This document shows, one piece after another, positions 17,906 to 35,391 of a stretch of DNA of 36,520 bases; positions within the stretch are counted from its first letter, which is position 1, and the number at the start of each line of letters is the position of its first letter. Source of the stretch: Balneolales bacterium (GTDB taxonomy: Bacteria > Bacteroidota > Rhodothermia > Balneolales > Cyclonatronaceae); assembly GCA_020832405.1 (NCBI GenBank), contig JAFIET010000038.1, positions 1 through 36,520 on the forward strand, read 5' to 3'. Below the pieces are notes generated by a model. The model saw only the letters and a list, made by a program, of their open reading frames with translations, made no database searches and was not told the DNA's origin. Made by a program: the position numbers and the translations under genes.

Positions 17906-17927
17906 AGAATCTTAATTGACAATCAGC

Positions 17928-19355: not shown

Positions 19356-19382
19356 TTTATTCACTGCGCATAAACCAAAATT

Positions 19383-20213
19383 ATGAGATTTGCTCTGATT
19401 TTAATGAGCGCGTTTTGTATTGCTGCCCCCCTCTTTTGGGGGTGCAGCGATCAAAATGATGCTGAAGAAGATCGTTTTCCTACCCTGGTGTGGAGCGATG
19501 AGTTTGACACCGACGGAACCATAAACCCGGATAACTGGATTTTTGATATCGGTACCGGCGCCGAACAGGGTATCCCCGGCTGGGGCAACAACGAGCTGCA
19601 GTACTATACCGACCGCCCCGAAAATGTTAAGGTTGAAGGCGGGATGCTGCATATCACTGCCCGTCGCGAAGCTTTTCAGGGTTCCGCTTTTACCTCCGGG
19701 AAAATTCTGACCCGCGGACTTTTCGAAACGACCTTCGGCCGTTTTGAAGCAAGCATCAAACTTCCTTTCGGGCAGGGCATCTGGCCTGCTTTCTGGCTGC
19801 TGGGTGACGATTCTGACGGAACCGTGATATGGCCGCAAATTGGCGAAATTGACATCATGGAGTATCGTGGTCAGCAACCGACCATTATTCATGGCAGCGT
19901 GCACGGGCCCGGTTATTCAGCCGGAAATGCTGTCACCAAAACCTATCAGCTTAGCGGATCGAGATTTGATACCAAATTCCACGTTTTTGCAATTGAATGG
20001 GGTCCTGATTTTATAGATTTTTTTGTTGATGATGTACTCTATAATACCATCACCCCGGCAGATGTAGGAAATAACGAGTGGGTTTTCAACGATAATAAGT
20101 TTTATATCATCCTTAATGTAGCAGTTGGCGGTACTTTCGTAGGTTCACCCAACAATAACACACCGTTTCCGCAAACAATGCTCGTAGATTATGTGAGAGT
20201 TTACTCCAGGTAA
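19383..20213 (+). CDS. GH16 laminarinase-type endo-beta-1,3-glucanase, lipoprotein
   Basis: The 276-residue protein has a lipoprotein signal with Cys21 (LFWGC) and a single GH16 domain. The catalytic signature GEIDIMEYRG gives nucleophile Glu155, helper Asp157 and acid/base Glu160. Other family marks are LVWSDEFD at the start, WGNNELQYYTDRPENVKVEGGMLHITAR, RFEASIKLPFGQGIWPAFWLLG and the ending FPQTMLVDYVRVYSR. The extra Met in ExDxxE is the beta-bulge form typical of laminarinases (GH16_3 type). It should cut beta-1,3-glucan chains at the cell surface. The gene starts 27 bases after the upstream lipoprotein gene. Confidence 0.95.
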   Translation: MRFALILMSAFCIAAPLFWGCSDQNDAEEDRFPTLVWSDEFDTDGTINPDNWIFDIGTGAEQGIPGWGNNELQYYTDRPENVKVEGGMLHITARREAFQGSAFTSGKILTRGLFETTFGRFEASIKLPFGQGIWPAFWLLGDDSDGTVIWPQIGEIDIMEYRGQQPTIIHGSVHGPGYSAGNAVTKTYQLSGSRFDTKFHVFAIEWGPDFIDFFVDDVLYNTITPADVGNNEWVFNDNKFYIILNVAVGGTFVGSPNNNTPFPQTMLVDYVRVYSR

Positions 20214-20282
20214 TTGCCCTGATTGTAAACCCCTTTTTTTGAATTACGTGTTTAATAAATCCTAAAATAAATTCTTAATACC

Positions 20283-23200
20283 TTGTCAATCTCAACCGAA
20301 CATTTTCAGAACGGGAAGTGGTTTAAAATCTCCGATTACGATGCCATGCGTCCGTTTTTTATGAGCATTGTGAGCGATTCCAATCACTGGATGTTTATTT
20401 CCAGCAACGGAGGTCTTACCGCCGGGCGGAAAAACAGCGATTACGCCCTGTTCCCTTATTACACAGATGACAAAGTCACCGAATCAGCTGATATTACCGG
20501 CAGCAAGACGATTTTCCAGGTACAGCATAACGGAGGCCTTCGGGTTTGGGAACCCTTCTCGGAGCGTCAGGCCGGTTTATGGCAGCTAAGCCGGAATTTG
20601 TACAAGAGCTTTAGCGGTAACAAAATTCTGTTTGAAGAGATCAATCACGACCTTGGGCTCACATTCCGGTATCAGTGGAACTCAAGCAATCTTTACGGAT
20701 TCGTACGTAAGAGCGAGCTGCTAAATACTTCCGGTGAAAAGCGTGTGCTGAACGTACTCGACGGCATTCAGAACATCCTCCCGTACGGCGTTGAGCCTGA
20801 CACACAAACCGCGGCAAGCAACCTTGTTGATGCCTACAAGCGCAGTGAAATCGTACCCGGATCAAACCTCGGTATTTATGCCCTCAGCGCCATTATTGTT
20901 GACAAAGCCGAGCCGAGCGAAGCCCTGAAAGCTAATGTTGCCTTTTCACTTGGGTTCGAAAATCCGGTTTGTCTCGCCTCTTCACTTCAGCTCAATACTT
21001 TCCGGAAAGGGCAGATGATTACCGGTGAAGACGACGTGAAGGGTGAAAAAGGTGCCTATTTTGTCTGTGACCGCCTCACCCTTGAAGCCGGTGCTTCCAA
21101 AAACTGGCTGATCGTTGCAAACGTAAATCAAAATTATGCGCAGCTTGTATCTCTCAGTCACGAAATTCAGAACGACGCGGGACTTGAAGCCAAGCTGGAA
21201 GCCGATATTGAACAGGGTACCGAAAAGCTGCGTGCCCTGGTAGCCGGAGCTGACGGCCTGCGCCTGAGTGCAGATAACCTGAAAGACGCCCGCCATTTTT
21301 CGAATGTATTGTTCAACATCATGCGTGGCGGTACCTTCGATCATAATTATCAGATTGAGCGCGGCGACCTTAGCCGCTATCTCGAAAACGCGAACAAAGC
21401 CGTATTTAATAAACGCGAGCAAAAGCTCGCAGCCCTGCCGCATACCTTCGACAAGCCGCAGCTTGACGCCCTCATTTCAGAGAGCACGGATCCGGATTTC
21501 AGCCGTTTGCTTTGCGAGTACCTCCCCCTGAAATTCAGCCGCAGGCACGGCGACCCAAGCCGCCCGTGGAACTACTTCTCCATCAATACAAACAGCGAGC
21601 TCGACGGTTCCAAAATTCTCGATTACCAGGGTAACTGGCGCGATATTTTCCAGAACTGGGAAGCACTCGTACATGCCTACCCGAATTTCATCGAAGGCAT
21701 GATTTTCAAATTCCTGAACACTTCTACCTTCGACGGATACAACCCTTACCGCGTAACCAAAGACGGATTCGACTGGGAAACCATCGAGCCCGATAACCCC
21801 TGGTCGTATATCGGCTATTGGGGCGATCATCAGATTATTTACCTGCTTAAGTTTCTCGAATTTTACAAAACCCGCCATGACAATGGCTTTGACTCCCTGT
21901 TTGAGAACAGCAGCTTCGTTTACGCACATGTTCCGTACCGGATTAAACCTTACGAACAAATCGCACAGGACCCCAAAAACACCATCGATTTTGATGAGGC
22001 CGCTGATGCTGCCATCCGCAAGGCGGTAGAAGAACAGGGTGCTGACGGGGCACTGCTCAGAAACGAAACCGGTGACATTCACCGGGTCAGCTTTCTTGAA
22101 AAAATACTGGCAACAACCCTTGCCAAGGTATCCAACTTCATTCCCGAAGCCGGTATTTGGATGAACACGCAGCGGCCGGAGTGGAATGATGCCAACAATG
22201 CGCTGGTCGGCAACGGGGTTTCTATGGTAACGCTCTGCTACCTGCGCCGCTTTCTTGCCTTTTTTGAACAGGTATTCGAAAGCAGTAAGCTGGATAAGGC
22301 AGAAGTTTCGGAGGAAATACTGGTCTTTTTCCAAAGCGTAGCACAGGTGCTGGAAGAGCAAAAACCGATGCTTGAGGGCACTGTTGATGATGCAGCCCGC
22401 CTGCGTATTACGGAAGCTCTGGGCAAAGCCGGCAGCATTTACCGCGTAAAGGTATATGAAAGCGGGTTTAGCGGCAAAAAAGGTGAGCTTACCAAGGCTG
22501 AGCTGGCTCAGTTTACCCGCACAGCGCGTCTGTTTATGGAGCATGCCATCAAAGCCAACCGTCGGGCCGATAAGCTCTATAACGCTTATAACATCATGAC
22601 ACTCGATGAAAACGGTATTTCTATAGGCCACTTGGATGAGATGCTCGAGGGGCAGGTTGCTGTACTCAGCTCCGGCTTCCTTAGTGCCGAAGAAAGCGTA
22701 GAGGTGCTTGATGCCATGCGCAAGAGCGCGCTCTACAGAGCCGATCAGAACAGCTACATGCTCTATCCGAACAAGCAGCTGCCACGCTTTCTCGAGAAAA
22801 ACATCATCCCGAATGAGCTGGTTAAAACTTCACCGCTGCTCGAAAAACTGCTCGCCGACGGAAACCTTCAGATTGTAAACCGCGACATTCTCGGCGGGGT
22901 GCATTTTAACGGAAACTTCCGCAATGCAGCTGATGTGAAGGCTGCCCTCAGCGACCTTAGCAAAGGTCCCTACGCAGCACTTGCAGAAACAGACGGACCG
23001 GCTGTTCTGCGCATCTTTGAACAGGTGTTCAATCACAAAGCTTTCACCGGCCGCTCCGGTACCTTCTTTGCGTATGAAGGTTTGGGATCGATTTACTGGC
23101 ACATGGTATCCAAACTTTATCTTGCGGTTTGGGAAGTTTGTGATCGTGCTGCAGCGACTGAGGCAACTGAAGACGCTCAATCAAGGCTTGCAGCTCATTT

Positions 23201-23696
23201 TTACGGCGTAGCCGACGGTATTGGCGTGCATAAGCCGCCAAAGGTGTACGGTGCTTTCCCTACCGACGCCTATTCCCACACGCCCTGGCACCGGGGCGCA
23301 CAACAGCCCGGCATGACGGGGCAGGTGAAGGAAGATATACTCGCAACCATTGGCGAGCTTGGGGTATCCGTAACTGACGGCGCCCTGAATTTCACCCCCC
23401 GATTGCTTAGAAAGGCAGAGTTCACTCAAGGCGCTCATACGTTCACTTTCGTGGATGTAAATCAGCAGCAGGCACAGATTCAGGTGCCGGCAAAAGCCCT
23501 GTGTTTTTCTTACTGCCAGGTACCCGTACTGTACTGTATAGCCGAAACCGATAAGGTTGAGGTAACACTTAGCGCAGGCCGTTCCGAAGTTTCTGACGGA
23601 CTGCGTATCGGCTCAGCGATGAGTAAGCTGGTTTTTGACCGGACCGGTGATGTGAAGCAAATAACGGTGCATCTCCGTGAGGCGCACCTCAAATAA
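20283..23696 (+). CDS. Beta-1,3-glucan/oligoglucan phosphorylase, GH94-related (GH149/GH161-like)
   Basis: This large (about 1137-residue) soluble protein has no signal peptide. The N-terminal SDSNHWMFISSNGGLTAGR...DYALFPYY opening and the long central helical domain fit clan GH-Q phosphorylases. Key segments are NYQIERGDLSRYL, YQGNWRDIFQNWEAL, DGFDWE, WSYIGYWGDHQIIYLLKFLE and RPEWNDANNALVGNGVSMVT. By analogy with GH94, the Asp of the last (Asp636 from this start) is the likely general acid. The length fits GH149 or GH161 rather than the shorter GH94. Such enzymes split beta-1,3-oligoglucans with phosphate to give glucose-1-phosphate. The start is a TTG; the nearest ATG (codon 22) would remove part of the conserved opening. 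The choice between GH149 and GH161 is unresolved. Confidence 0.82.
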   Translation: MSISTEHFQNGKWFKISDYDAMRPFFMSIVSDSNHWMFISSNGGLTAGRKNSDYALFPYYTDDKVTESADITGSKTIFQVQHNGGLRVWEPFSERQAGLWQLSRNLYKSFSGNKILFEEINHDLGLTFRYQWNSSNLYGFVRKSELLNTSGEKRVLNVLDGIQNILPYGVEPDTQTAASNLVDAYKRSEIVPGSNLGIYALSAIIVDKAEPSEALKANVAFSLGFENPVCLASSLQLNTFRKGQMITGEDDVKGEKGAYFVCDRLTLEAGASKNWLIVANVNQNYAQLVSLSHEIQNDAGLEAKLEADIEQGTEKLRALVAGADGLRLSADNLKDARHFSNVLFNIMRGGTFDHNYQIERGDLSRYLENANKAVFNKREQKLAALPHTFDKPQLDALISESTDPDFSRLLCEYLPLKFSRRHGDPSRPWNYFSINTNSELDGSKILDYQGNWRDIFQNWEALVHAYPNFIEGMIFKFLNTSTFDGYNPYRVTKDGFDWETIEPDNPWSYIGYWGDHQIIYLLKFLEFYKTRHDNGFDSLFENSSFVYAHVPYRIKPYEQIAQDPKNTIDFDEAADAAIRKAVEEQGADGALLRNETGDIHRVSFLEKILATTLAKVSNFIPEAGIWMNTQRPEWNDANNALVGNGVSMVTLCYLRRFLAFFEQVFESSKLDKAEVSEEILVFFQSVAQVLEEQKPMLEGTVDDAARLRITEALGKAGSIYRVKVYESGFSGKKGELTKAELAQFTRTARLFMEHAIKANRRADKLYNAYNIMTLDENGISIGHLDEMLEGQVAVLSSGFLSAEESVEVLDAMRKSALYRADQNSYMLYPNKQLPRFLEKNIIPNELVKTSPLLEKLLADGNLQIVNRDILGGVHFNGNFRNAADVKAALSDLSKGPYAALAETDGPAVLRIFEQVFNHKAFTGRSGTFFAYEGLGSIYWHMVSKLYLAVWEVCDRAAATEATEDAQSRLAAHFYGVADGIGVHKPPKVYGAFPTDAYSHTPWHRGAQQPGMTGQVKEDILATIGELGVSVTDGALNFTPRLLRKAEFTQGAHTFTFVDVNQQQAQIQVPAKALCFSYCQVPVLYCIAETDKVEVTLSAGRSEVSDGLRIGSAMSKLVFDRTGDVKQITVHLREAHLK

Positions 23697-23712
23697 CTTA
23701 ACCCGCCCATTC

Positions 23713-25005
23713 ATGAAAAAACTTTTTTTCCCGATACTGTTAACAACATTAGTACTGCTAATGGCATCCTGCTCTTCCCAACCAAAGCATGATTTTTCAG
23801 GCATCACGATAACCGCAGCCGAGATTTTAGGCAACCCTGAGTATCAGGCTATTTCTTATGGCGGCTACCGTGAAATTACGCGCGACATTCAGCCGACTAT
23901 CCCTCAGCTGAAAGAAGATATGCGCATTCTCTCAGCTATGGGCGTCAGAATCCTTCGGACCTACAACGTGCATTACGATGAAGCGGCAAACCTGCTGCAG
24001 GCCATCCGCGAAATGCGGCAGGAAGATCCCGGCTTCGAAATGTATGTGATGCTTGGTGCCTGGATCGACGCCAAAAACTCATGGACGGATGAGCCGGAGC
24101 GCATCCGCGATCAGGATGCACCCCGCAACGCAGTGGAAATAGCACGTGCTGTGGAACTAACGCAACAGTATCCCGAAATCGTCAAAATTATCGCAGTTGG
24201 TAATGAAGCAATGGTACACTGGGCCGCTGAATACTATGTAGAGCCCGTTATCATTCTCAATTGGGTGAATCACCTGCAGGAGCTCAAGGCACAGGGCGAA
24301 TTGCCGGAAACACTCTGGATTACCTCATCAGACGATTTCGCTTCATGGGGAGGCGGCGGTGAAGAATATCACACCGACGACCTTAATGCACTCATCGAAG
24401 CGGTCGATTTTATTTCGATGCACACTTACCCCATGCACAATACGCATTACAACCCGCAGTTCTGGGGCGTACGCGATAATGAGGTGAACCTGAGTGACAG
24501 CGAAAAAATCCATCTTGCAATGGACCGTGCCATGAACCTGGCAAAAAAACACTACAATGATGTTGTTGCCTACATGCACAGCATTGGCGTGGATAAACCG
24601 GTTCATATCGGTGAAACCGGATGGGCTACCATATCAAACGAGCACTACGGCGAAGGCGGTGCCAACGCCATCGATGAGTACAAATCCGCTCGTTTTTACC
24701 ATGATATGCGCAACTGGAGCAATGAAAACAACATCACCGTTTTCTATTTCGAAGCATTTGATGAACAATGGAAAGATGCCGGCAATCCGCTCGGTTCGGA
24801 AAACCATTTCGGACTGATCAACCTTCAGGGGCAGGCCAAATTCATGCTTTGGGATCTTGTGGATGAGGGTATCTTCGAGGGGCTTACCCGCGACGGGCAA
24901 CCCATCACCAAAACCTTCGGCGGCGATATAGATGCCCTGATGGAGACAGTGCTTGTGCCGCCAACCGACCGTGAAATACGTGCCCGGCTTGCGGAGCGCG
25001 AGTAG
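23713..25005 (+). CDS. GH17 beta-1,3-glucanase/glucanosyltransferase, lipoprotein
   Basis: The start at 23713 gives a proper lipoprotein signal with Cys20 (LLMASC) in a 430-residue product; an earlier in-frame GTG would spoil it. The GH17 barrel shows MGVRILRTYNVHYDEAANLLQAI, the acid/base Glu165 in AVGNEAMVHW, DFISMHTYP and the nucleophile Glu301 in HIGETGWAT, then FYFEAFDEQWKD. The family acts on beta-1,3-glucans by hydrolysis or transglycosylation. Membrane anchoring places it at the outer membrane or periplasm, unlike the two GH17 products encoded downstream. It follows the phosphorylase gene by 16 bases. Confidence 0.92.
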   Translation: MKKLFFPILLTTLVLLMASCSSQPKHDFSGITITAAEILGNPEYQAISYGGYREITRDIQPTIPQLKEDMRILSAMGVRILRTYNVHYDEAANLLQAIREMRQEDPGFEMYVMLGAWIDAKNSWTDEPERIRDQDAPRNAVEIARAVELTQQYPEIVKIIAVGNEAMVHWAAEYYVEPVIILNWVNHLQELKAQGELPETLWITSSDDFASWGGGGEEYHTDDLNALIEAVDFISMHTYPMHNTHYNPQFWGVRDNEVNLSDSEKIHLAMDRAMNLAKKHYNDVVAYMHSIGVDKPVHIGETGWATISNEHYGEGGANAIDEYKSARFYHDMRNWSNENNITVFYFEAFDEQWKDAGNPLGSENHFGLINLQGQAKFMLWDLVDEGIFEGLTRDGQPITKTFGGDIDALMETVLVPPTDREIRARLAERE

Positions 25006-25026
25006 AACGCAAACAAAGTGAGTAAT

Positions 25027-25069
25027 TGCCGGGCTCAGAAGCTCTGTTGAGGGGGCGGGCCCGGCATTT
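25027..25069 (+). terminator. Hairpin after the GH17 lipoprotein gene, possible terminator
   Basis: TGCCGGGC (25027-25034) pairs perfectly with GCCCGGCA (25059-25066). Only a short TTT follows, so termination may be partial. It lies 22 bases beyond the stop codon. Confidence 0.5.
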
Positions 25070-25101
25070 CATTCCTGATTCGACATAACATCCTTCATAA
25101 G

Positions 25102-25140
25102 CATCCTGCCGGAGGATAGGGCCGAAGCCCTTGCAGGATG
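25102..25140. repeat. Nested palindrome in the leader of the symporter gene
   Basis: CATCCTGC (25102-25109) pairs with GCAGGATG (25133-25140), and inside the loop GGGC-CGAA-GCCC (25119-25130) forms a second hairpin. On the minus strand the inner loop reads UUCG, the very stable tetraloop. The element ends 29 bases before the symporter start codon, so it could be a leader regulator, an RNA-stability element or a REP-like repeat. Confidence 0.5.
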
Positions 25141-25169
25141 ATGGTATAAAACATCCTAAAATCAGAATA

Positions 25170-26600
25170 ATGTCAGCAATGCAAACACCTGCCAAAGACA
25201 GGGTACCTTTACTGCAAAAAGCAGCATTCGGATCCGGTCATCTGGTTAATAACCTTTTGCCCGGAGCACTGGGCGTATTTTCCTTCTTCCTGCTCACGGC
25301 TTTTGGCATGGACCCATTCCTGGCAGGATTGCTGGGAGGGTTGCCCCGGCTTTTCGACGCCATAACCGACCCCATTATGGGGTACATCTCAGACAATACG
25401 AAATCAAGCTATGGCCGCCGCCGTCCTTACATTTTTATAGGGGCTATTGCCAGCGGTTTGCTGTTTATGCTTTTGTGGCAGCTTGATCCTGACGCTTCAC
25501 AGGCGTACAACTTCTGGTATTTCATGCTGTTTTCGCTGATTTACCTGATCGGGAACACCATGTTTTCAACCCCGCTGATTGGTCTTGGCTATGAAATGAC
25601 TTTCGATTACAACGAGCGTACCCGACTTATGGGGTTCTCCCAAACGGTCGGGCAGATAGCCTGGATGATTGTACCCTGGTTTTGGGTACTTATTGCAAAT
25701 CCCGATTTGTTTGAAACACAGGCGCAGGGTGTACATCAGCTGGCAATTATTGTAGGCCTGAGCTGTATGTTTTTTGGCATAATGCCTGCCATTTTTTGCC
25801 GTGAAGTAGATCAGGCCAACCTGTCGAACAGGGCTGATCTCACCTTCAAAGCAATTTTTAAAAACCTCAAAGAGCTGATTGCCAACATGAAGCTGATTGC
25901 CCAAAACCAGCCTTTTGCGCGGCTTTGCGGTGCAACCTTCCTGGTGTTTAACGGTTTTCAGATGGTAGCCTCTTTCAGTTTCTTTATTATCGTGTTTTAC
26001 ATGTTTAACGGCGACTACGGTATGGCGGGAACATGGCCGGCATGGTTTTCTACGGTAAGTGCTTTTGCGACGGCCTTCCTGATTATCCCGATAGTAACAT
26101 GGCTGGCCAACAGATATGGTAAGCGCAAGGCGTTCATCATTTCAACAGCGCTTTCTATGGTTGGCTATCTGCTTAAATGGTGGGGCTTCAGCCCGGAAAA
26201 CCCCTGGCTCATTTTTATGCCAATTCCGTTTATGGTATTTGGTATCGGCGGCTTGTTCACGCTTATGATGAGTATGACAGCCGACGTTTGTGACCTTGAT
26301 GAGCTTAAAAACGGTATGCCGCGTAAAGAAGGTACCTTCGGTGCGATTTACTGGTGGATGGTGAAACTTGGGCAGGGTATTGCCCTTGTATTGGGAGGGC
26401 TGGTTCTTAAGCTGGTCGGTTTTGATCCTGAACTTTCAGTTCAGACAACCGCAACGCTTACCAATCTGCGCCTTGCGGATATCCTTATTCCGGCCTTTAC
26501 TGCCGGTCTGGCCATCTGGGTGATGTGGGGATACGACCTCACCGAACAAAAGGCCCGGGATATTAAGGATGAGCTTGTAAGAAGAAGAGGTGAGCTGTAA
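25170..26600 (+). CDS. GPH-family (MelB-like) cation:sugar symporter
   Basis: I choose the ATG at 25170; the frame is open back to a TTG at 25131, but that start lies inside the palindrome. The 476-residue protein has about 12 membrane helices and the MelB-type signature DAITDPIMGYISDNTKSSYGRRRPYIFIGA after the second helix. Other family points are TRLMGFSQTVGQIAW and SMTADVCDLDELKNGMPRKEGTFGAIYWWMVKLGQG in the C-terminal half. GPH proteins import glycosides with Na+ or H+. Set between an anchored GH17 and cytoplasmic GH17/phosphorylase enzymes, it most likely carries beta-1,3-gluco-oligosaccharides across the inner membrane. Confidence 0.9.
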   Translation: MSAMQTPAKDRVPLLQKAAFGSGHLVNNLLPGALGVFSFFLLTAFGMDPFLAGLLGGLPRLFDAITDPIMGYISDNTKSSYGRRRPYIFIGAIASGLLFMLLWQLDPDASQAYNFWYFMLFSLIYLIGNTMFSTPLIGLGYEMTFDYNERTRLMGFSQTVGQIAWMIVPWFWVLIANPDLFETQAQGVHQLAIIVGLSCMFFGIMPAIFCREVDQANLSNRADLTFKAIFKNLKELIANMKLIAQNQPFARLCGATFLVFNGFQMVASFSFFIIVFYMFNGDYGMAGTWPAWFSTVSAFATAFLIIPIVTWLANRYGKRKAFIISTALSMVGYLLKWWGFSPENPWLIFMPIPFMVFGIGGLFTLMMSMTADVCDLDELKNGMPRKEGTFGAIYWWMVKLGQGIALVLGGLVLKLVGFDPELSVQTTATLTNLRLADILIPAFTAGLAIWVMWGYDLTEQKARDIKDELVRRRGEL

Positions 26601-26665
26601 ACCTCAAAAGAGAAGTACTTTGTAAGTTCACATTTCAGTTAATTTTATCAGTTAGAAATAAGTAT

Positions 26666-27571
26666 ATGTCATTCAGAGAAGAAAGATTTTTAAGCTATGC
26701 CTCCGTAGGAGCGCAGGATCGTACCGGTTACATGGAAAGCCTTCCGGCTGAAGACCTTAACTGCCTTTTCATGGAAATCATGCAAAACGGCATTCACGGG
26801 CTCTGTTTCAGCCTGTATGAAGACGGTCAGAAACCGGGTGATGTTATTGGTGAGGCCCAAATAAGACGCCGTATGGAAATCATCAAGCCTTACTCAGGCT
26901 GGGTTCGCTCCTTTTCCTGTATCGAAGGCAATGAACTGATCCCGAAAATCGCCAAAGAACTGGGCGTTAAAACCCTTGTCGGTGCCTGGCTCGGGCACGA
27001 TAAAGAGAAAAACCGCGAAGAAATCGACGCGCTTATCGAGCTTGGAAAGCAGGGTTTCGTAGATATCGCAGCCGTCGGCAATGAGGTACTCTACCGTAAG
27101 GACCTCACCGAAGAAGAGCTGCTGGCCTACATCCGCGAAGTGAAAGAAGCCCTGCCTGATATCCCCGTAGGTTATGTAGATGCCTACTACGAATTCGTGC
27201 AGCGCCCTGCTATTGCCGAAATCAGCGATGTCATTTTATGCAACTGCTACCCCTACTGGGAAGGCACCGCTTTCGAGCACAGCTTCGGCCACATGCGCCA
27301 CATGTTTGAGCTTGGCGTGCAGGCAGGCAAAGGCAAACGCGTGATCATCACCGAAACCGGCTGGCCAAGTAAGGGTGAAGGCCTTGGCGGAGCTGTCCCT
27401 TCAAAAGAAAATGCCCTCAAATATTTTATTAATACCCAGCTTTGGGCCAATGATAATAATATTGAGGTGTTCTACTTTTCATCTTTTGATGAATCCTGGA
27501 AAGTGGGCGCCGAAGGTGAAGTTGGCGCCTATTGGGGATTGTGGGACAAAAACGAAAAACTCAAATTCTGA
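26666..27571 (+). CDS. GH17-family glycosidase without signal peptide
   Basis: The 301-residue product begins MSFREERFLSYASVGAQ and has no signal, so it should act in the cytoplasm. The GH17 barrel shows VRSFSCIEGNELIPKIAKELGVKTLVGAWLG, the acid/base Glu140 in AAVGNEVLYR, the nucleophile Glu230 in VIITETGWPSKG and FYFSSFDESWKV near the end. The reaction should be cleavage or transfer on beta-1,3-gluco-oligosaccharides brought in by the upstream symporter. It is followed after only 2 bases by a second GH17 gene of similar size but low resemblance, suggesting complementary specificity rather than recent duplication. Confidence 0.9.
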   Translation: MSFREERFLSYASVGAQDRTGYMESLPAEDLNCLFMEIMQNGIHGLCFSLYEDGQKPGDVIGEAQIRRRMEIIKPYSGWVRSFSCIEGNELIPKIAKELGVKTLVGAWLGHDKEKNREEIDALIELGKQGFVDIAAVGNEVLYRKDLTEEELLAYIREVKEALPDIPVGYVDAYYEFVQRPAIAEISDVILCNCYPYWEGTAFEHSFGHMRHMFELGVQAGKGKRVIITETGWPSKGEGLGGAVPSKENALKYFINTQLWANDNNIEVFYFSSFDESWKVGAEGEVGAYWGLWDKNEKLKF

Positions 27572-27573
27572 GA

Positions 27574-28506
27574 ATGACTACATTTGAGCAACTCGGTATG
27601 GAAGCCGGAAGAGCAGTCTGCTATTCCGGCTTCCGTGAGGGGCAGCAGCCCGGAGGCCCTTATCCCACTTACGAACAGGTAGTCGAAGATCTGCACCTGA
27701 TGCGCCCGCACTGGAAACACCTGCGTATGTACGACTGCGACGAACACGCCATTATGGTTTTGAAAGCTATCCGGCAGGAAAAGCTCGGCTTCACCGTAAT
27801 GCTCGGCGCCTACATCGAGGCCGAAATGAACAACTTTAACTGCCCATGGGGCGGTGGTGTGTACAGCGAGGAACAGCTTGATATAAATGTTGCCCTCAAT
27901 AAGTCCAAAATGGAAAAGCTCATCGCACTGGCCAACGAATACCCCGATATTGTTTCAAGCCTTTCGGTTGGCAACGAGGCCTGCGTAGAATGGACGGATC
28001 ATTATGTGCATGAAAACAGTGTGCTCGCTTATGTAAAGCAGGTGCAGGCCGGCGCAAAACAACCGGTTACCTTCTGTGAAAACTATGTGCCCTGGCACAT
28101 GAAGCTGCAAAAACTGGCCGAAGCCGTTGATTTTATTTCCATACACACCTACCCCGTGTGGGAATACAAGCACATCGACGAAGCACTCGATTATACCCGC
28201 GACAATTACTACTCGGTAGCTGCCAAATATCCCGGCAAACCCGTTGTAATAACCGAGGCCGGCTGGGCAACCAACTCCAACGGCCGCGGCATCAATCCGG
28301 GAAACGTGAACGAGACCTATCAGAAAATTTATTTCGAAAAGCTGATGACCTGGACCGATACGGAAGGCATCCTGACCTTCTTTTTTGAAGCTTTCGATGA
28401 ATCCTGGAAAGGCTCTCCCGAACCGCTTGAACCGGAGAAACACTGGGGACTCTTCAAAATTGACCGTACGCCGAAGCTCGCCCTTCAACATTTAAGCGGC
28501 TATTAA
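27574..28506 (+). CDS. Second signal-less GH17-family glycosidase
   Basis: The start at 27574 lies immediately after the upstream stop and gives a 310-residue protein without a signal peptide; an in-frame TTG inside the previous gene is less likely. GH17 motifs are HWKHLRMYDCDEHAIMVLKAI, acid/base Glu135 in LSVGNEACVEW, DFISIHTYPVWEYKH and nucleophile Glu228 in VVITEAGWAT, then FFFEAFDESWKG. It resembles the anchored GH17 at 23713 more than its immediate neighbour (shared VGNEAxVxW and TxGWAT forms). Predicted work is cytoplasmic processing of imported beta-1,3-glucan fragments, perhaps sizing them for the phosphorylase. Confidence 0.9.
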   Translation: MTTFEQLGMEAGRAVCYSGFREGQQPGGPYPTYEQVVEDLHLMRPHWKHLRMYDCDEHAIMVLKAIRQEKLGFTVMLGAYIEAEMNNFNCPWGGGVYSEEQLDINVALNKSKMEKLIALANEYPDIVSSLSVGNEACVEWTDHYVHENSVLAYVKQVQAGAKQPVTFCENYVPWHMKLQKLAEAVDFISIHTYPVWEYKHIDEALDYTRDNYYSVAAKYPGKPVVITEAGWATNSNGRGINPGNVNETYQKIYFEKLMTWTDTEGILTFFFEAFDESWKGSPEPLEPEKHWGLFKIDRTPKLALQHLSGY

Positions 28507-28578
28507 TCTCCTCTTGAATAACAAAGGTAAACCCGTACATTTCTGCTTCGGAAAACCCGTATTCAATAACTTACAGCT

Positions 28579-31269
28579 TTGAAGCTCTTATCCCTTTTTT
28601 TTCTGCTATTTCTGGCACTTCCCGCTGAGGCGCAGCTGCTTCCCGAAAAGGGGGTGCCCCGAATGGATAGTTTCACACCGGCTGATTATCAAAATGCCGG
28701 GAAAATATGGGATATCGACTCAGCCCCAAACGGCATTGCTTACCTTGCTGCCGACAGGGGCCTGCTCGAATTCGATGGCCGGAAATGGCGCCGGTTCAGA
28801 GGCAGCGACGGCTTCATACGCTCTGTTTTGGTGATGAGCGATTCCCTGCTCTATACTGGTTCCGATCTGGATTTCGGCCGATGGATCAGGGATGATGCCG
28901 GCGGCTGGCACTACACATCCCTGTATCCTTTCCGGGATGAGCTGGCGGGCCTGGCTGAAGAGTTTTGGGGGGTACACGAACAGAACGGCTACCTTTATTT
29001 CGTTTCAGCGAGTAACCTGTATGTGTACCGGAATCAGAATCTCACAAAAATTGCTGCCCCCAGCCGTTTTTCAGGCAGCGTTTTTTTTGAAGATACACTT
29101 TGGATTGCTGATGAAGTTCAGGGTCTGATGCGCGTTTCTGAATTTGCACTTCAGCCTTTTGCGCCTTTTCCGGAGCCGGGCCCGCAGGAGCTCACGGGGC
29201 TCTACCGGCAGGGGGAAGCTCTGATGGTTGTTACCCGTAAATCCGGCTTGCTGCGCTATGAAGACGGTGCAATGCAGGCAGATAACAGCCCCCTTGCCCG
29301 GGAACTGAATGCGGCAGCGGTATTCAGCTTTGAACCTCTCGGACAGGATTTCCACGCTTTCGGCACAGTACAGCGCGGTGTGTTTATTGTAAACGCCACC
29401 GGAAGGCTTGTGCATCACATCAACCGAAACAAAGGGCTGCCAAACAACACCGTGCTTAGCCTTCACTTTAGTCCCTTTGGAAAACTGTGGTCAGGCCTGG
29501 ATTTTGGCCTTACGACCCTTGACCTTCGCAGCAGCCGCACTTTTATTTACGATTACCGCGGCGATTTCGGAACCGGCTACTCGGCCCTGCTTCAGCATGA
29601 TACCTTCTACCTCGGTACCAATCAGGGGCTTTATTACGTACCCTGGCAGCAGCTGGATAACAGCAGTGCTTTTTTTGACTTCCGGCAGGTTCCCGGCTCC
29701 GACGGGCAGGTGTGGTCAATTCATGAAATTGGGGATGAGGTTTTTGTAGCCCACGACCGCGGCTTATTTGTGTACCGCGATCGCCGCCTCCGCCTGATCG
29801 GAGAAGCCCGCGGCACCTGGACCGTTATCCCTTTCGGCTCGTATCTGCTTGCAGGTACTTACAATGGTATTTCGGTTTTTGAAAAGCAGCAGGGGGAATG
29901 GCGCTTATTGCGGCAGATGGAGCTGATTGTGGGGTCCGCGAGTCAGCTCATACCCGAGAGCCCAAACCTGCTTTGGGTGAACATCCCGAATTTCGGCTTT
30001 GTACGCGCCCGTCTCGATGAAAATTTGTTTCCCGTTGAGCGTACCTTTTTTCCTGTTGCTGATTTTGAGGGCGATGATGCTTTTCTGGTTTACGAAAACG
30101 ACAGCCTGAGCGTGATCAGTAGCCTCTACCGCTACCATTTTGATGCTGATTCGGAGGCTTTCGGCCCTAAACAACCTCAATATCATCATCACCTGCCCGA
30201 TGAGGTGCTCCCGGGTATTTTTAGCCCAATCGCTCTGAATGATGGCTGGCATTTTTTTCCGGTATCCAACGGATTCGCACTTCAGGATCTTAACAGAGCA
30301 TACGATCCTGAACAGCTGAACCGGCAGTTGAGGCTGCAGCGGGCTAAACTTTTCAGCAATGATGCCCTGCAGGCCTGGCAGCCCGGCATCATCCTGCCCA
30401 AAAATATGAATAACCTGCGCCTCGATTTTGTGATTCCTAACGAAACAGACTTCTGGTATCAGTACCGGTCAGGACCTGCGGCAGAATGGAGCAGCCCTTC
30501 TCAAAATGCCGGAATTGAACTCATCGGCCTTCGGTCGGGGCAGCATGAATTGCAGGTAAGAGCGCTTTTTGGCGGGGAAGTTATTGCCGAAAAAAACATT
30601 ACGTTCCGGGTTGCTGCTCCCTGGTACTTCAGCTGGTACGCCTTTCTGGTTTATGCCCTGCTGATTTTCGGCGGATGGAGCCTTCTGAAGCGCTGGCACC
30701 GGGAAATTCTGCTGGAACAGAAAAAAGCTCTGGTTCAGCGGCAGCAAAAAGATTTTAAAGATCAGGCTGCAAGGCATCGGCAGCAGGTGATGCTGCTGGA
30801 GCAGGAGCGCCTTCAGGAAGAACTCGACAAACTCGAAAAAGCCCTGAAGAACAAGACTCTCGAGCTGGCTAACCGTGCTAAAAAAAGTCAGGATAAAAAC
30901 CGGATTTTACGCGAAGCCAGAGATAAAATGCAGGCACTTGAAGCAACCTCTCAGGTTTCCAAAATCCGGATTCAGGATGTAAGCAAACTCATCGACTCAT
31001 GTATTGAGCTTGAGGATAACACCTTCGAGATTCAGATGAGCGAGCTGCATCAGGAGTTTTTCAGGAAGATGAAGGAGCTCTACCCTGAGCTTTCGGGTAA
31101 CGACCTGCGCCTGTGTGCTTATGTGAAGCTCGGTTTCAGCGCTAAGGAAATTGCCGAGATGCTGCACATACAGCCCTCGAGCGTGTACATCAGCCGATCC
31201 CGACTCCGCAAAAAGCTCAACCTTGAAACTGATGAAGATTTGTACGGTTTCCTGAACAGTATTGAGTGA
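28579..31269 (+). CDS. Membrane-tethered propeller/Y_Y_Y regulator with LuxR-type HTH
   Basis: The 896-residue protein starts at a TTG (28579) that gives an ideal signal peptide ending near PAEA-Q. Residues about 30-600 are beta-propeller-like repeats (KIWDIDSAPNGIAYLAADRGLLEFDGRKW, GLPNNTVLSLHFSPFGKLWSGLDFGLTTLD). A Y_Y_Y-type sandwich follows (about 600-680: NNLRLDFVIPNETDFWYQYRS). One transmembrane helix lies at about 684-704. A long coiled coil (about 710-790) leads to a LuxR/GerE-type helix-turn-helix (about 838-882: LSGNDLRLCAYVKLGFSAKEIAEML...). No kinase or receiver domain is present, so the sensor acts directly on DNA from the membrane. By position it probably senses glucan fragments in the periplasm and controls the surrounding genes. 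Confidence 0.9.
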   Translation: MKLLSLFFLLFLALPAEAQLLPEKGVPRMDSFTPADYQNAGKIWDIDSAPNGIAYLAADRGLLEFDGRKWRRFRGSDGFIRSVLVMSDSLLYTGSDLDFGRWIRDDAGGWHYTSLYPFRDELAGLAEEFWGVHEQNGYLYFVSASNLYVYRNQNLTKIAAPSRFSGSVFFEDTLWIADEVQGLMRVSEFALQPFAPFPEPGPQELTGLYRQGEALMVVTRKSGLLRYEDGAMQADNSPLARELNAAAVFSFEPLGQDFHAFGTVQRGVFIVNATGRLVHHINRNKGLPNNTVLSLHFSPFGKLWSGLDFGLTTLDLRSSRTFIYDYRGDFGTGYSALLQHDTFYLGTNQGLYYVPWQQLDNSSAFFDFRQVPGSDGQVWSIHEIGDEVFVAHDRGLFVYRDRRLRLIGEARGTWTVIPFGSYLLAGTYNGISVFEKQQGEWRLLRQMELIVGSASQLIPESPNLLWVNIPNFGFVRARLDENLFPVERTFFPVADFEGDDAFLVYENDSLSVISSLYRYHFDADSEAFGPKQPQYHHHLPDEVLPGIFSPIALNDGWHFFPVSNGFALQDLNRAYDPEQLNRQLRLQRAKLFSNDALQAWQPGIILPKNMNNLRLDFVIPNETDFWYQYRSGPAAEWSSPSQNAGIELIGLRSGQHELQVRALFGGEVIAEKNITFRVAAPWYFSWYAFLVYALLIFGGWSLLKRWHREILLEQKKALVQRQQKDFKDQAARHRQQVMLLEQERLQEELDKLEKALKNKTLELANRAKKSQDKNRILREARDKMQALEATSQVSKIRIQDVSKLIDSCIELEDNTFEIQMSELHQEFFRKMKELYPELSGNDLRLCAYVKLGFSAKEIAEMLHIQPSSVYISRSRLRKKLNLETDEDLYGFLNSIE

Positions 31270-31531: not shown

Positions 31532-33097
31532 ATGAAAACGCAGAACGCTGTTGTAACCCGCATCGCCATGATTGTAGCGCTTGGCGGGTTTTTGATGGGC
31601 TTCGATGCCTCGGTAATTTCGGGCGTTGTCCGGTTTATTGAGCCGGAGTTCGGACTCTCCAAAATTCAGCTGGGATGGGCGGTCGGCTCGCTTACCCTCA
31701 CCGCGACCCTGGCCATGATGATTGCCGGGCCGCTGAGCGACCGCTTCGGGCGGCGGACCATCCTGAAAGCCGCCGCGATTTTGTACGCGGTTTCGGCTCT
31801 TGGCTCGGCCCTGGCGCCGGATTTCACCACGCTCGTGATTGCCCGCATGATCGGCGGCTTCGGCGTAGGTGCCTCTCTCATTATCGCCCCAATGTACATT
31901 GCGGAAATCGCCCCGCCCAAAATCCGCGGCCGGCTGGTAAGCTTCAATCAGCTCAATATTGTAATCGGTATTTCGGCAGCTTTCTTCACCAACTACCTCA
32001 TTTTACAGTGGTCGCAGTCCGACGCCGCATGGGCACAGGCCCTGATGTTCAGCGAATACACCTGGCGCTGGATGCTCGGCCTCGAAACCCTTCCCGCCGT
32101 GATCTATTTCTTTGGCCTGTACTTCGTGCCGAAGAGTCCGCGCTGGCAGATCATGAAAGGAAGCGTGCCCGAAGCCCGCATCACCCTGAACCGGATCTAC
32201 GGAGAAGACGAAACCGACCGGCAGATTGAGGACGTGCTTCGCAGCCTGAAAGCAGATGAGAAAAAAGAAAAAGTTTCCCTCAAAGAAATTTTCCATCCGT
32301 CGCTGCGGCTGGTGCTTGGTATCGGGGTTGTTCTGGCTGTGCTGCAGCAGATTACCGGAATTAACGCGGTCTTTTTCTATGCGCCCATGATTTTCGAGCA
32401 GTCCGGCATCGGAACGGATGCTTCGTTTATGCAGGCCATCCTGGTCGGCCTTACCAACCTGGTGTTCACCATTGTGGCCATGCTACTGATTGATAAGCTC
32501 GGGCGCAAGCCGCTGCTGGTTATCGGTATGAGCGGCATCACCCTGATGATGATGCTTCTCGCCTGGGGCTTCCATTCGGCGACCTACGAGCTGAGCAGCG
32601 AAGACATTCAGGCGATGGAAATCCCCGCTGAAACCCGTGCCGTTGCCGGCAGTCTGGCAGGGGTGCCCTTCGCAAGCGATGTGGCTTTTAAACGCGCCCT
32701 GGCCGAAACCCTCGGCACTGAAGCAGCCGTGGAGTTCGAATCGGCCTTCATTACCGCGGCCATCGACATCAACCCCACCCTCATTTTGTTCGGCATTCTG
32801 GGCTTTGTGGCTTCATTTGCCATCTCCATCGGACCCGTGATGTGGGTGATGTTTTCGGAGCTGTTCCCACTCCGGGTGCGGGGGCTGGCCATTTCGTTTG
32901 CCGGCTTCATCAACTCGGGCGTCAGCTTCGGCGTGCAGCTGGTTTTCCCCTGGGAGCTCGCCGTGCTGGGCAACAGCATCACCTTCCTCATCTACGGCGT
33001 ATTTGCCGCAATCGGCCTGGTATTTATCTGGCGCATGGTTCCTGAAACCAAAAACAAAACCCTTGAAGAATTAGAACAGCAACTCGTAAAGAAATAG
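31532..33097 (+). CDS. MFS sugar-porter (glucose/xylose-type) transporter
   Basis: This 521-residue, 12-helix protein has the sugar-porter marks: DRFGRRTILK after helix 2, RMIGGFGVGAS with PMYIAEIAPPKIRGRLVSFNQL, VPKSPRW at the start of the central loop, QQITGINAVFFYAPMIF in helix 7 and VPETKNKTLEELE at the end. Members usually move monosaccharides with H+. An extra loop of about 70 residues before the last helices (around 350-425) is longer than usual. The gene ends 2 bases before the GH3 start, so the pair probably hydrolyses glucan fragments in the periplasm and imports the glucose. Confidence 0.93.
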   Translation: MKTQNAVVTRIAMIVALGGFLMGFDASVISGVVRFIEPEFGLSKIQLGWAVGSLTLTATLAMMIAGPLSDRFGRRTILKAAAILYAVSALGSALAPDFTTLVIARMIGGFGVGASLIIAPMYIAEIAPPKIRGRLVSFNQLNIVIGISAAFFTNYLILQWSQSDAAWAQALMFSEYTWRWMLGLETLPAVIYFFGLYFVPKSPRWQIMKGSVPEARITLNRIYGEDETDRQIEDVLRSLKADEKKEKVSLKEIFHPSLRLVLGIGVVLAVLQQITGINAVFFYAPMIFEQSGIGTDASFMQAILVGLTNLVFTIVAMLLIDKLGRKPLLVIGMSGITLMMMLLAWGFHSATYELSSEDIQAMEIPAETRAVAGSLAGVPFASDVAFKRALAETLGTEAAVEFESAFITAAIDINPTLILFGILGFVASFAISIGPVMWVMFSELFPLRVRGLAISFAGFINSGVSFGVQLVFPWELAVLGNSITFLIYGVFAAIGLVFIWRMVPETKNKTLEELEQQLVKK

Positions 33098-33099
33098 CC

Positions 33100-35391
33100 A
33101 TGAAAAAAATACGTGCAAGTATCCTCAGTATCATCATCCTTGCTGTGCTGTCGGGCCTGCTGAGTGCGCCGGCCTTCGCACAGCAGGAGCGTCCGCTGTA
33201 CCTCAACCCCGAGGCCCCGATTCATGAGCGGGTGGAAGACCTCCTCAGCCGAATGACGCTCGAAGAGAAAATCGGGCAGATGAGTCAGCTGGATATTTCG
33301 CAAATTAACACGACCGGCATTCAGGCCGATGTGGTGCTTGATCCGGAGAAGGCCCGCAACCTGATTGTGAACCATCACGTCGGTTCCTTCATCAACGGAG
33401 AGGCCGTGCCGCCGCAGCAATGGTACGAGTACATGGCCGGCCTCACGCGCATAGCGGTGGAAGAAAGCCGGCTCGGCATCCCGATCATTTACGGCATCGA
33501 TCACGTGCACGGTGCGAGCTATATGGCCGAAACGACCATCTTCCCGCAGCCGATTAACCTGGGCGCGACTTTCAATACCGCACACAGCTACAACATGGGC
33601 TGGGTTACCGCCCTGGAAATGGCCGATGTGGGCCATCACTGGAATTTCGCCCCAACCCTCGATGTGGGCGTCAATCAGATCTGGGGCCGGCTGTACGAAA
33701 CCTTCGGCGAAGATCCGCTGTTGGTTTCGCAGATGGGCGTGGCCTATCTCGACGGTTTTCACAACAATGCCGACATTGCGCCCTACCGCCTCGCTTCGAA
33801 TGCGAAACACTTCATCGCCTATTCCGACCCGGTTTCCGGCTGGGACAAAACCCCGGTAAGCCTGGGCATGCAGGAGATTTGTGAAATACACCTGCCGCCG
33901 TTTCAGGCTGCGATTGATGCCGGCCTGATGACCATTATGGGGAACAGCTCCGAGGTGAACGGTGAGCCGGTGCATGCCTCGCACTTTTTCCTCACCGAAA
34001 TGCTGCGCAATCAGCTGGGCTTCGAAGGTGTGGTGCTCACCGACTGGGATGAAGTAGGCAAGCTTGTAGGCTTTCACCGTACCGCCCGCGACTACAAAGA
34101 GGCAACGTACCAGGCAGTTACCGCCGGGATTGATGTAAGCATGACCCCCCTCACCCTGCAGTTCAACGATGCGTTGCTGGAGCTGGTGCAGGAAGGCCGC
34201 ATCAGCGAAGAGCGCATCGATGAGTCCGTGCGCCGTGTGCTGCGCCTCAAGTTTGAAATCGGCCTGTTCGAGAACCCCTTCCCCCGCAGCGACCGTCTGG
34301 ACCGTATCGGCAGCGAGGAAAGCCGCCTGAAATCGCTCGAAGCCGCCCGTGAATCAATCGTGCTGCTCAAAAACGAGGATGAGGTGCTTCCGCTTCGCAA
34401 TCCCGCACGCATCGTGCTGGCCGGTCCGTCGGCCAACAGCAAGCGCAACCTGGCCGGCGGCTGGACCCTCGCCTGGCAGGGCGGCCGCGAGGAGCAATAC
34501 CCCGAGCGCATGCACACCATCTACTCGGCACTGCAGGCCGCTTTCCCGGATGCACAGCTTGAGCTGATGGAAGCCCTGCCCGAAAACCGCGAGCAGCTCA
34601 TGGGGCAGCTTGCCGGGGCTGATGTGATTATCTACGCCGGCGGCGAAGAGCCCTATGCGGAGTTTCTCGGCAACATCACCGATCTGAATCTGCCGCAGGA
34701 GCAGAAAGATGACATCCGCCACCTTGCGGCCTCCGGCATTCCGCTGGTTACCGTGCTGGTGCAGGGGCGTCCGCGCCTGATCACCGACGTGCTCGGCCAC
34801 ATGGATGCGCTCATCCACGCCGGGTTGCCCGGTTTCGAAGGGGCCGAAGCCATCGCCGATGTGCTCAGCGGCCGCGTGAACCCGAGCGGGCGCCTGCCGT
34901 TCACCTATCCGGCTTTCGCCGGCCACATGCTCAACTACAACCACAAGCCGAGCGACATCTTCTTTTTTCACCCGGATTCGCAGCATCCCTTTGAGGAGCC
35001 CAATCCCGGCACGCACCTCTTCACTTTTGGTGAGGGCCTGAGCTACACAAGCTTCAGCTACAGCGATCTGCGCGTGAGTGCGGACGAAGTTTCTGCCGGC
35101 GGCAGCCTCACCGCGAGCGTTACCGTAACCAATACCGGCGATGTTGCCGGCAGCCGGCCGCTGCTGTGGTTCCTGAGCAACACCTACGCAACCATTCCGC
35201 GCCCTGTGCGCGAGCTGAAGCACTTCGAGCGCGTACACCTTGAACCCGGTGCTTCCCAAACCCTCGAATTTGAAATCCGGCCTGAAGAAGTACTCTGGTA
35301 CCCCGACGGAAACTGCGAGCGCGTGTTTGAAGCCGGTACTTTCCTGGTTCGTGTGGGTACTTTGAAAGAATCGTTTGAGTTCAGGCCCTGA
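33100..35391 (+). CDS. Periplasmic GH3 beta-glucosidase
   Basis: The 763-residue protein has a signal peptide cleaved after AFA (about residue 27). The GH3 N-terminal barrel begins VEDLLSRMTLEEKIGQM and includes YGIDHVHG, KHFIAYSDPVSGWDK and the nucleophile Asp315 in GVVLTDWDEV. The alpha/beta sandwich (ESIVLLKNEDEVLPL, ANSKRNLAGGWTLAWQG) and a C-terminal fibronectin-III-like domain (about 650-760, starting YTSFSYSDLRV) complete a full-length BglX/ExoI-like enzyme. It should release glucose from the non-reducing ends of beta-glucan oligosaccharides in the periplasm. A strong terminator follows its stop. Confidence 0.95.
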   Translation: MKKIRASILSIIILAVLSGLLSAPAFAQQERPLYLNPEAPIHERVEDLLSRMTLEEKIGQMSQLDISQINTTGIQADVVLDPEKARNLIVNHHVGSFINGEAVPPQQWYEYMAGLTRIAVEESRLGIPIIYGIDHVHGASYMAETTIFPQPINLGATFNTAHSYNMGWVTALEMADVGHHWNFAPTLDVGVNQIWGRLYETFGEDPLLVSQMGVAYLDGFHNNADIAPYRLASNAKHFIAYSDPVSGWDKTPVSLGMQEICEIHLPPFQAAIDAGLMTIMGNSSEVNGEPVHASHFFLTEMLRNQLGFEGVVLTDWDEVGKLVGFHRTARDYKEATYQAVTAGIDVSMTPLTLQFNDALLELVQEGRISEERIDESVRRVLRLKFEIGLFENPFPRSDRLDRIGSEESRLKSLEAARESIVLLKNEDEVLPLRNPARIVLAGPSANSKRNLAGGWTLAWQGGREEQYPERMHTIYSALQAAFPDAQLELMEALPENREQLMGQLAGADVIIYAGGEEPYAEFLGNITDLNLPQEQKDDIRHLAASGIPLVTVLVQGRPRLITDVLGHMDALIHAGLPGFEGAEAIADVLSGRVNPSGRLPFTYPAFAGHMLNYNHKPSDIFFFHPDSQHPFEEPNPGTHLFTFGEGLSYTSFSYSDLRVSADEVSAGGSLTASVTVTNTGDVAGSRPLLWFLSNTYATIPRPVRELKHFERVHLEPGASQTLEFEIRPEEVLWYPDGNCERVFEAGTFLVRVGTLKESFEFRP

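Follow-up and report, generated by a model that had tools for sequence, protein, structure and literature searches.

What could two glycoside hydrolases of family 17 (GH17) do in a bacterium when both lack a signal peptide and accompany a β-1,3-glucan phosphorylase? This question is raised by a 36,520-nucleotide stretch of a Balneolales bacterium (phylum Bacteroidota; positions 1 to 36,520 of contig JAFIET010000038.1, assembly GCA_020832405.1), hereafter the window, which contains the core of a laminarin-type β-1,3-glucan utilisation cluster of an already known kind. It encodes a family GH149 phosphorylase, an exported GH17 (GH17A) and the two soluble enzymes, GH17b and GH17c. Laminarin is one of the major carbon stores of the sea, and its breakdown is less well understood in the cytosol than outside the cell. 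A preliminary description of the locus had proposed that both soluble GH17s are glucanosyltransferases resizing oligosaccharides for the phosphorylase. We have found that the pair consists of one transferase-type and one laminarinase-type enzyme and that, in the genomes sampled, GH17b came with GH149 but not conversely.

The open reading frames (ORFs) were located where the preliminary description had placed them (Table 1). Its account of their export also held: with signal peptides called by an N-terminal hydrophobicity heuristic, the GH149 protein of about 1137 residues showed no N-terminal hydrophobic stretch, neither GH17b nor GH17c had a signal-like N-terminus, and GH17A carried the lipobox of an anchored lipoprotein. 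No lipoprotein anchor was seen for GH17c in the window. A hydrophobic start was absent from all 116 GH17b relatives and present in one of 55 GH17c relatives, that one being an over-extended ORF start. The premise that GH17 enzymes are normally exported, however, overlooked signal-less members already in print (PMC5827456, PMC11005184). The lipoprotein start of GH17A is ATG 23713 (MKKLFFPILLTTLVLLMASC...), whereas the mechanical ORF begins at GTG 23677. A transporter of the major facilitator superfamily (MFS), GPH type, sits between GH17A and the soluble pair (from 25131 or 25170 to 26600), leaving GH17b and GH17c as the sole direct neighbours. The most likely start of GH17c is ATG 27574, two bases past the GH17b stop. 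It was preferred over TTG 27532, which would overlap GH17b and was rejected, because relatives start at the same place, with MxTF. The PF00332 scores of GH17b and GH17c lay above the Pfam gathering cut-off of 28.2 bits. GH17A scored 23.1 bits, below it, despite an ortholog-level match to the Formosa endo-laminarinase FbGH17A (PDB 6FCG, E 3.2e-167). The whole genome held no GH17 beyond these three.

The GH149 protein matched NCBIfam NF058639 over its full length and above the curated threshold of 1150 bits, and it aligned with Pro_7066 (PDB 6HQ6) over nearly its entire length. Its active-site motifs (WND, WRD and YEG...H) contain the residues named in PMC6771811. Counted by hand along the alignment, W651-N652-D653, R470-D471, E951 and H959 of Pro_7066 (numbering of PMC6771811) were all matched. 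By family, it is thus assigned as a β-1,3-glucan phosphorylase.

Transfer in the GH17 family has been tied to three acceptor-site residues. In RmBgt17A of Rhizomucor miehei (4WTP/4WTR), replacement of Tyr102, Trp157 or Glu158 by Ala abolishes it (Qin 2015, as told in PMC11005184). The counterparts in MlGH17B, a β-1,3-glucanosyltransglycosylase of Muricauda lutaonensis without signal peptide, are Tyr136, Trp191 and Glu192 (Allahgholi et al. 2024, PMC11005184). GH17b of the window holds the same trio, as Tyr143, Trp198 and Glu199. RmBgt17A was also its nearest solved structure, both by sequence (Table 1) and with a profile of its relatives (E 4e-46 vs 7e-13 for 6FCG). The AlphaFold model (mean pLDDT, the predicted local distance difference test score, 90.3) superposed on 4WTP with Z 32.0 and a root-mean-square deviation (rmsd) of 1.9 over 251 residues, vs Z 26.8 for 6FCG, although this closest structure is fungal and only 30% identical over those aligned residues. 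MlGH17B resembles GH17b in being a signal-less single domain with the same Tyr/Trp/Glu and subsite residues and the same place after an MFS gene; this comparison was made by published residues.

We have then counted residues in the relatives. GH17 rows came from two merged draws with some genomes in common, and dropping near-copies of more than 97% identity reduced them from 329 to 312. The two catalytic Glu of GH17b (Glu140 and Glu230) were retained in all aligned rows of GH17b, GH17c and MFS-GH17 fusions, and 17 catalytic and substrate-site positions were near-invariant across 122 GH17b rows. Trp198 was conserved in 122/122 of these rows and, in the set free of near-copies, Glu199 in 116/116. 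The Tyr position of that set held Tyr in 111, Leu in 4 and His in 1. The four relatives with Leu (L101, L145, L147 and L172) are single-domain proteins and offer natural tests of the role of the residue. The segment from β3 to the catalytic Glu had a median of 32 residues in GH17b, the short loop of the transferase type; the corresponding medians were 47 for GH17A and 55 for GH17c. Taken with its modelled fold, these features make GH17b very probably a glucanosyltransferase.

The same comparison gave a different result for GH17c. Its nearest structure was 6FCG, both by sequence (Table 1) and as first match to the profile of its relatives, and its AlphaFold model (mean pLDDT 88.1) matched 6FCG with Z 31.1 and an rmsd of 3.2 over 295 residues, vs Z 26.7 for 4WTP. 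All 55 near-copy-free relatives carry Val at the Tyr position and His at that of Asn193. GH17A relatives had Val in 84 cases, Ile in 4 and a gap in 1 (n=89); only the Val and His columns were used for GH17A, because its loop shifts the Trp and Glu columns. Together with Val and His at the marker positions, the long β3-α3 loop of GH17c is a laminarinase mark; such a loop has been given as a mark of bacterial laminarinases (PMC13188888). The transferase trio is incomplete, with Val for Tyr and both Trp and Glu retained, so the acceptor site appears as a mixture that might still allow transfer. Thus, the trio and the loop length place GH17b, and not GH17c, with the transferases, and the proposal that both soluble enzymes are of this kind stood for the first and fell for the second. 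GH17c is probably a hydrolase cutting β-1,3-glucan chains. Compared with FbGH17A, it is some 120 residues shorter, has no signal peptide and retains the transferase Trp and Glu. The laminarin and GH17 literature examined yielded no characterised member of its clade, which is widespread and signal-less and is a modest addition to the published picture. NCBIfam gave no match for one GH17b relative or for one exported GH17c-like relative.

A maximum-likelihood tree, built rapidly from 141 GH17 domains and carrying a long-branch warning, grouped GH17b with the MFS-GH17 fusions. GH17A and a set of mostly exported GH17s were on the side of GH17c (SH-aLRT, an approximate likelihood-ratio test, 100 for each of the two sides), and GH17c itself formed one group at 97. 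A tandem duplication as the source of the soluble pair was rejected, since its two members lie on these opposite sides. The transporter homologues of relatives are frequently fused to a GH17 domain. The grouping of such fusions (e.g. L111:2989-5451 and L124:13094-15496) with signal-less GH17b suggests that the fused domain would face the cytosol, and the nesting of L111 within the single-domain set suggests that fusion arose more than once. GH17c and the fusion had been considered as mutually exclusive, and this was rejected: among 37 genomes with GH17b, 16 had GH17c only, 7 had both, 8 had the fusion only and 6 had neither.

The fusions bear on whether GH17b could instead be a glucose-releasing hydrolase, both soluble GH17s then feeding glucose and short oligosaccharides to metabolism. 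FbGH17B of Formosa, a GH17 type related to GH17b and in the same cluster position, is fused to its MFS transporter and was reported as an exo-glucosidase by Unfried et al. (2018), whose assays also identified FbGH17A as endo-acting and FbGH30 as a β-1,6-glucosidase (PMC6246565). It is 53% identical to MlGH17B (PMC11005184), and the fusions fall on the tree side of GH17b. However, FbGH17B has Met for Tyr (PMC11005184), and the fusions carry Tyr in only 6 of 40 cases, next to Leu in 17, His in 8, Met in 5, Phe in 3 and Gln in 1. Single-domain GH17b, that of the window included, nearly always has Tyr, as does the single-domain transferase MlGH17B. We therefore consider a hydrolytic GH17b quite unlikely.

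Next, we have investigated the distribution of these genes in a sample of 392 Bacteroidota genomes. Of these, 75 carried GH149 and 37 a close GH17b relative, every one of the latter also carrying GH149 (Fisher p 3e-31, uncorrected for descent). Only close relatives were counted; two further genomes with distant matches (32-35% identity, without GH149) were excluded. In one family (f2), GH17b occurred in 16 of 19 genomes with GH149 and in none of 20 listed genomes without it, so that deep descent alone would be insufficient to explain the tie. Since all GH17b genomes were among those with GH149, a functional tie between the two is likely. The 74 stretches fetched around GH149 represent 74 of the 75 genomes, the 75th being the window itself. 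At 64 of 80 named GH17b loci, GH149 lay inside the fetched stretch. For the remaining 16, 12 whole genomes were searched, and a GH149 match was found elsewhere in 10 of them, over the cut-off in 9. GH149 and the main GH17b were on separate contigs in five genomes of the sample. In all 58 cases, GH17c directly followed GH17b on the same strand, and all 23 sampled genomes with a close GH17c also carried GH17b. Outside Bacteroidota, one metagenome-assembled genome labelled Opitutales (L197) had GH17b and GH17c side by side with GH149 elsewhere, which reflects either transfer or mis-binning. The restriction of the transferase type to phosphorylase genomes in this sample and the constant position of GH17c downstream of it make a test of the three enzymes together worthwhile.

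A gene never found without GH149 in this sample (37/37), while GH149 often occurs without it, behaves as a helper would, and this fits the resizing role of the preliminary description, in which both soluble GH17s would bring oligosaccharides to a suitable length for GH149, much like amylomaltase beside maltodextrin phosphorylase. The transferase-like sequence, residues and model of GH17b, the Trp and Glu retained in GH17c and a higher degree of polymerization (DP) preference of GH149 enzymes, given in the abstract of the structure paper (PMC6771811), agree with it as well. The laminarinase side of GH17c and its missing Tyr argue against it, as do the enzymes' measured properties. In the synthetic direction, Pro_7066 showed a kcat/Km of 3.9-6.0 with all acceptors from Glc to G6 (PMC5827456, Table 2), and it breaks G3 down to glucose (PMC6484121); this near-equal use of lengths indicates that it needs no resizing, although these kinetics are those of a relative of the window enzyme. 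MlGH17B uses donors of DP at least 4, releases laminaribiose (Glc2) and forms β-1,6 links (PMC11005184). Such links should halt the phosphorylase, the Euglena GH149 being active solely on the β-1,3 disaccharide (PMC5827456). Resizing to preferred lengths thus appears weakly founded, and we regard it as unlikely. The likeness to amylomaltase also suffers, as amylomaltase keeps one linkage type whereas MlGH17B makes β-1,6 links. We have not found this parallel proposed in the portions consulted of the literature on GH149/GH17, cytoplasmic laminarin use and GH17/amylomaltase.

We rather favour, with moderate confidence, a division of labour in which GH17b moves chains and GH17c cuts them, jointly preventing a build-up of linear β-1,3-glucan in the cytosol beside GH149. 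By analogy with characterised relatives, the exported GH16 and GH17A would break the glucan into oligosaccharides for import by the GPH transporter, and cytosolic GH149 would phosphorolyse these to glucose 1-phosphate. GH17b would act on oligosaccharides from about DP 4-5 upwards, release laminaribiose and place the remainder on another chain, probably via a β-1,6 link, like MlGH17B, and GH17c would hydrolyse β-1,3-glucan chains. Together, they could convert longer chains, whether imported or re-elongated, into short pieces and soluble kinked ones. Linear β-1,3-glucan might in this way be kept from accumulating while GH149 runs reversibly, near equilibrium. The sequence analysis establishes the genes, their fold classes, key residues and missing signals; the activities and their purpose are inferred.

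Several observations weigh against this division of labour. The reported exo-activity of FbGH17B, so close to MlGH17B, is one, and the absence of GH17b from 38 of the 75 GH149 genomes is another. The products of MlGH17A are mainly of DP 2-4 (PMC13188888) and would be poor donors for an MlGH17B-type enzyme. Removal of the kinks would need a β-1,6-glucosidase, the role of GH30 in Formosa, and no GH30, GH1 or GH5 match was found in this genome. It holds four GH3, of which one on another contig (L272) has no obvious signal and is the sole cytosolic candidate seen for cutting kinks.

The β-1,6 links also invite a storage role, with GH149 in the synthetic direction and GH17b as branching enzyme building a cytosolic β-1,3/1,6-glucan reserve that GH17c trims. 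Pro_7066 elongates to DP 11 in vitro (PMC5827456), the branched products of MlGH17B reach DP 26 (PMC11005184), and the 2026 paper on MlGH17A, which describes MlGH17B as cytoplasmic and in a cluster also with GH149, suggests storage (PMC13188888). A missing glycogen pathway was considered as support and rejected, since the genome has matches over the cut-off to glycogen synthase (GlgA) and branching enzyme (GlgB). The rest of the cluster consists of exported degradative enzymes, and phosphorylases usually run in the degradative direction in cells. Hence, we hold a storage role to be very unlikely. Its boldest form, in which GH149, GH17b and GH17c would be the cytosolic β-glucan counterpart of the glycogen machinery (phosphorylase, β-1,6 brancher and trimmer) making a soluble, laminarin-like bacterial reserve, is a long shot.

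The link between GH149 and a cytoplasmic GH17 is already published, and the present locus refines that picture without overturning it. Kuhaudomlarp et al. (2018) reported clusters in which GH149 is accompanied by an extracellular GH16, a cytoplasmic GH17, a pfam13347 MFS transporter and regulators; the GH149 loci that they describe in Bacteroidetes contain GH17, GH16, GH3 and GH30 (PMC5827456). Their Type II clusters share GH16, cytoplasmic GH17, the pfam13347 MFS and a regulator beside GH149 with the window. As described there, these are mainly from Alteromonadales and have a histidine kinase and a response regulator, whereas the window combines two soluble GH17s with one regulator of LuxR type. 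The order GH149-GH17A-GH30-MFS-GH17b is found repeatedly in named Bacteroidota. In contrast to the MlGH17B system, the Balneolales window has no GH30 between GH17A and the MFS gene, and GH17c adjoins GH17b.

Table 1. Genes of the β-1,3-glucan cluster and its surroundings in the window.
Feature	Positions	Strand	Evidence
Exported protein, 1048 residues	14759..17905		Pfam GH2_C exactly at cut-off
GH16, β-glucanase-like, probable lipoprotein	19383..20213	+	PF00722 85 bits; hydrophobic signal-like N-terminus with Cys
GH149 β-1,3-glucan phosphorylase (by family), 1137 residues, TTG start, without signal peptide	20283..23696	+	NF058639 1698.8 bits; PDB 6HQ6 1524.8 bits
GH17A, lipoprotein, predicted FbGH17A-type endo-laminarinase	23713..25005	+	PDB 6FCG E 3.2e-167; lipobox
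GPH-type MFS sugar transporter	25170..26600 (mechanical ORF from 25131)	+	PF13347 208.7 bits; not fused to GH17
GH17b, 301 residues, signal-less, MlGH17B-type glucanosyltransferase candidate	26666..27571	+	PF00332 44.2 bits; 4WTP E 8.3e-33; Tyr143/Trp198/Glu199
GH17c, signal-less, laminarinase-side GH17	27574..28506	+	PF00332 30.1 bits; 6FCG E 6.5e-31
Regulator, signal-like N-terminus, C-terminal LuxR-type helix-turn-helix	28579..31269	+	PF00196 23.6 bits
MFS sugar porter; probable substrate glucose or a similar monosaccharide	31532..33097	+	TIGR00879 343 bits
GH3, β-glucosidase-like, exported	33100..35391	+	PF00933/PF01915; signal-like N-terminus

Twenty window proteins, including every ORF above 350 residues except overlapping antisense ORFs, were scanned with Pfam. 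No SusC/TonB or SusD model was among their matches, although such a pair could sit on another contig. Since no susC/susD pair was seen among these proteins, carbohydrate-active enzyme (CAZyme) cluster is a safer label than polysaccharide utilization locus. A promoter and terminator scan of positions 19200-28700 gave 17 and 18 consensus sites, vs 9.9 and 11.7 in shuffled sequence. Homologues of the LuxR-type regulator adjoin the cluster in several relatives' loci. The left half of the contig (3750-14228) encodes a PhnD-like binding protein, a PHO4 transporter and two Porin_O_P proteins near the phosphate-using phosphorylase cluster, possibly a chance neighbourhood. The 1048-residue exported protein had no relative in a PDB search and may act on glucans as a member of an unassigned enzyme family. 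In several loci, this protein and a Big_2-domain lipoprotein (17916-19355) are both retained upstream of GH16/GH149.

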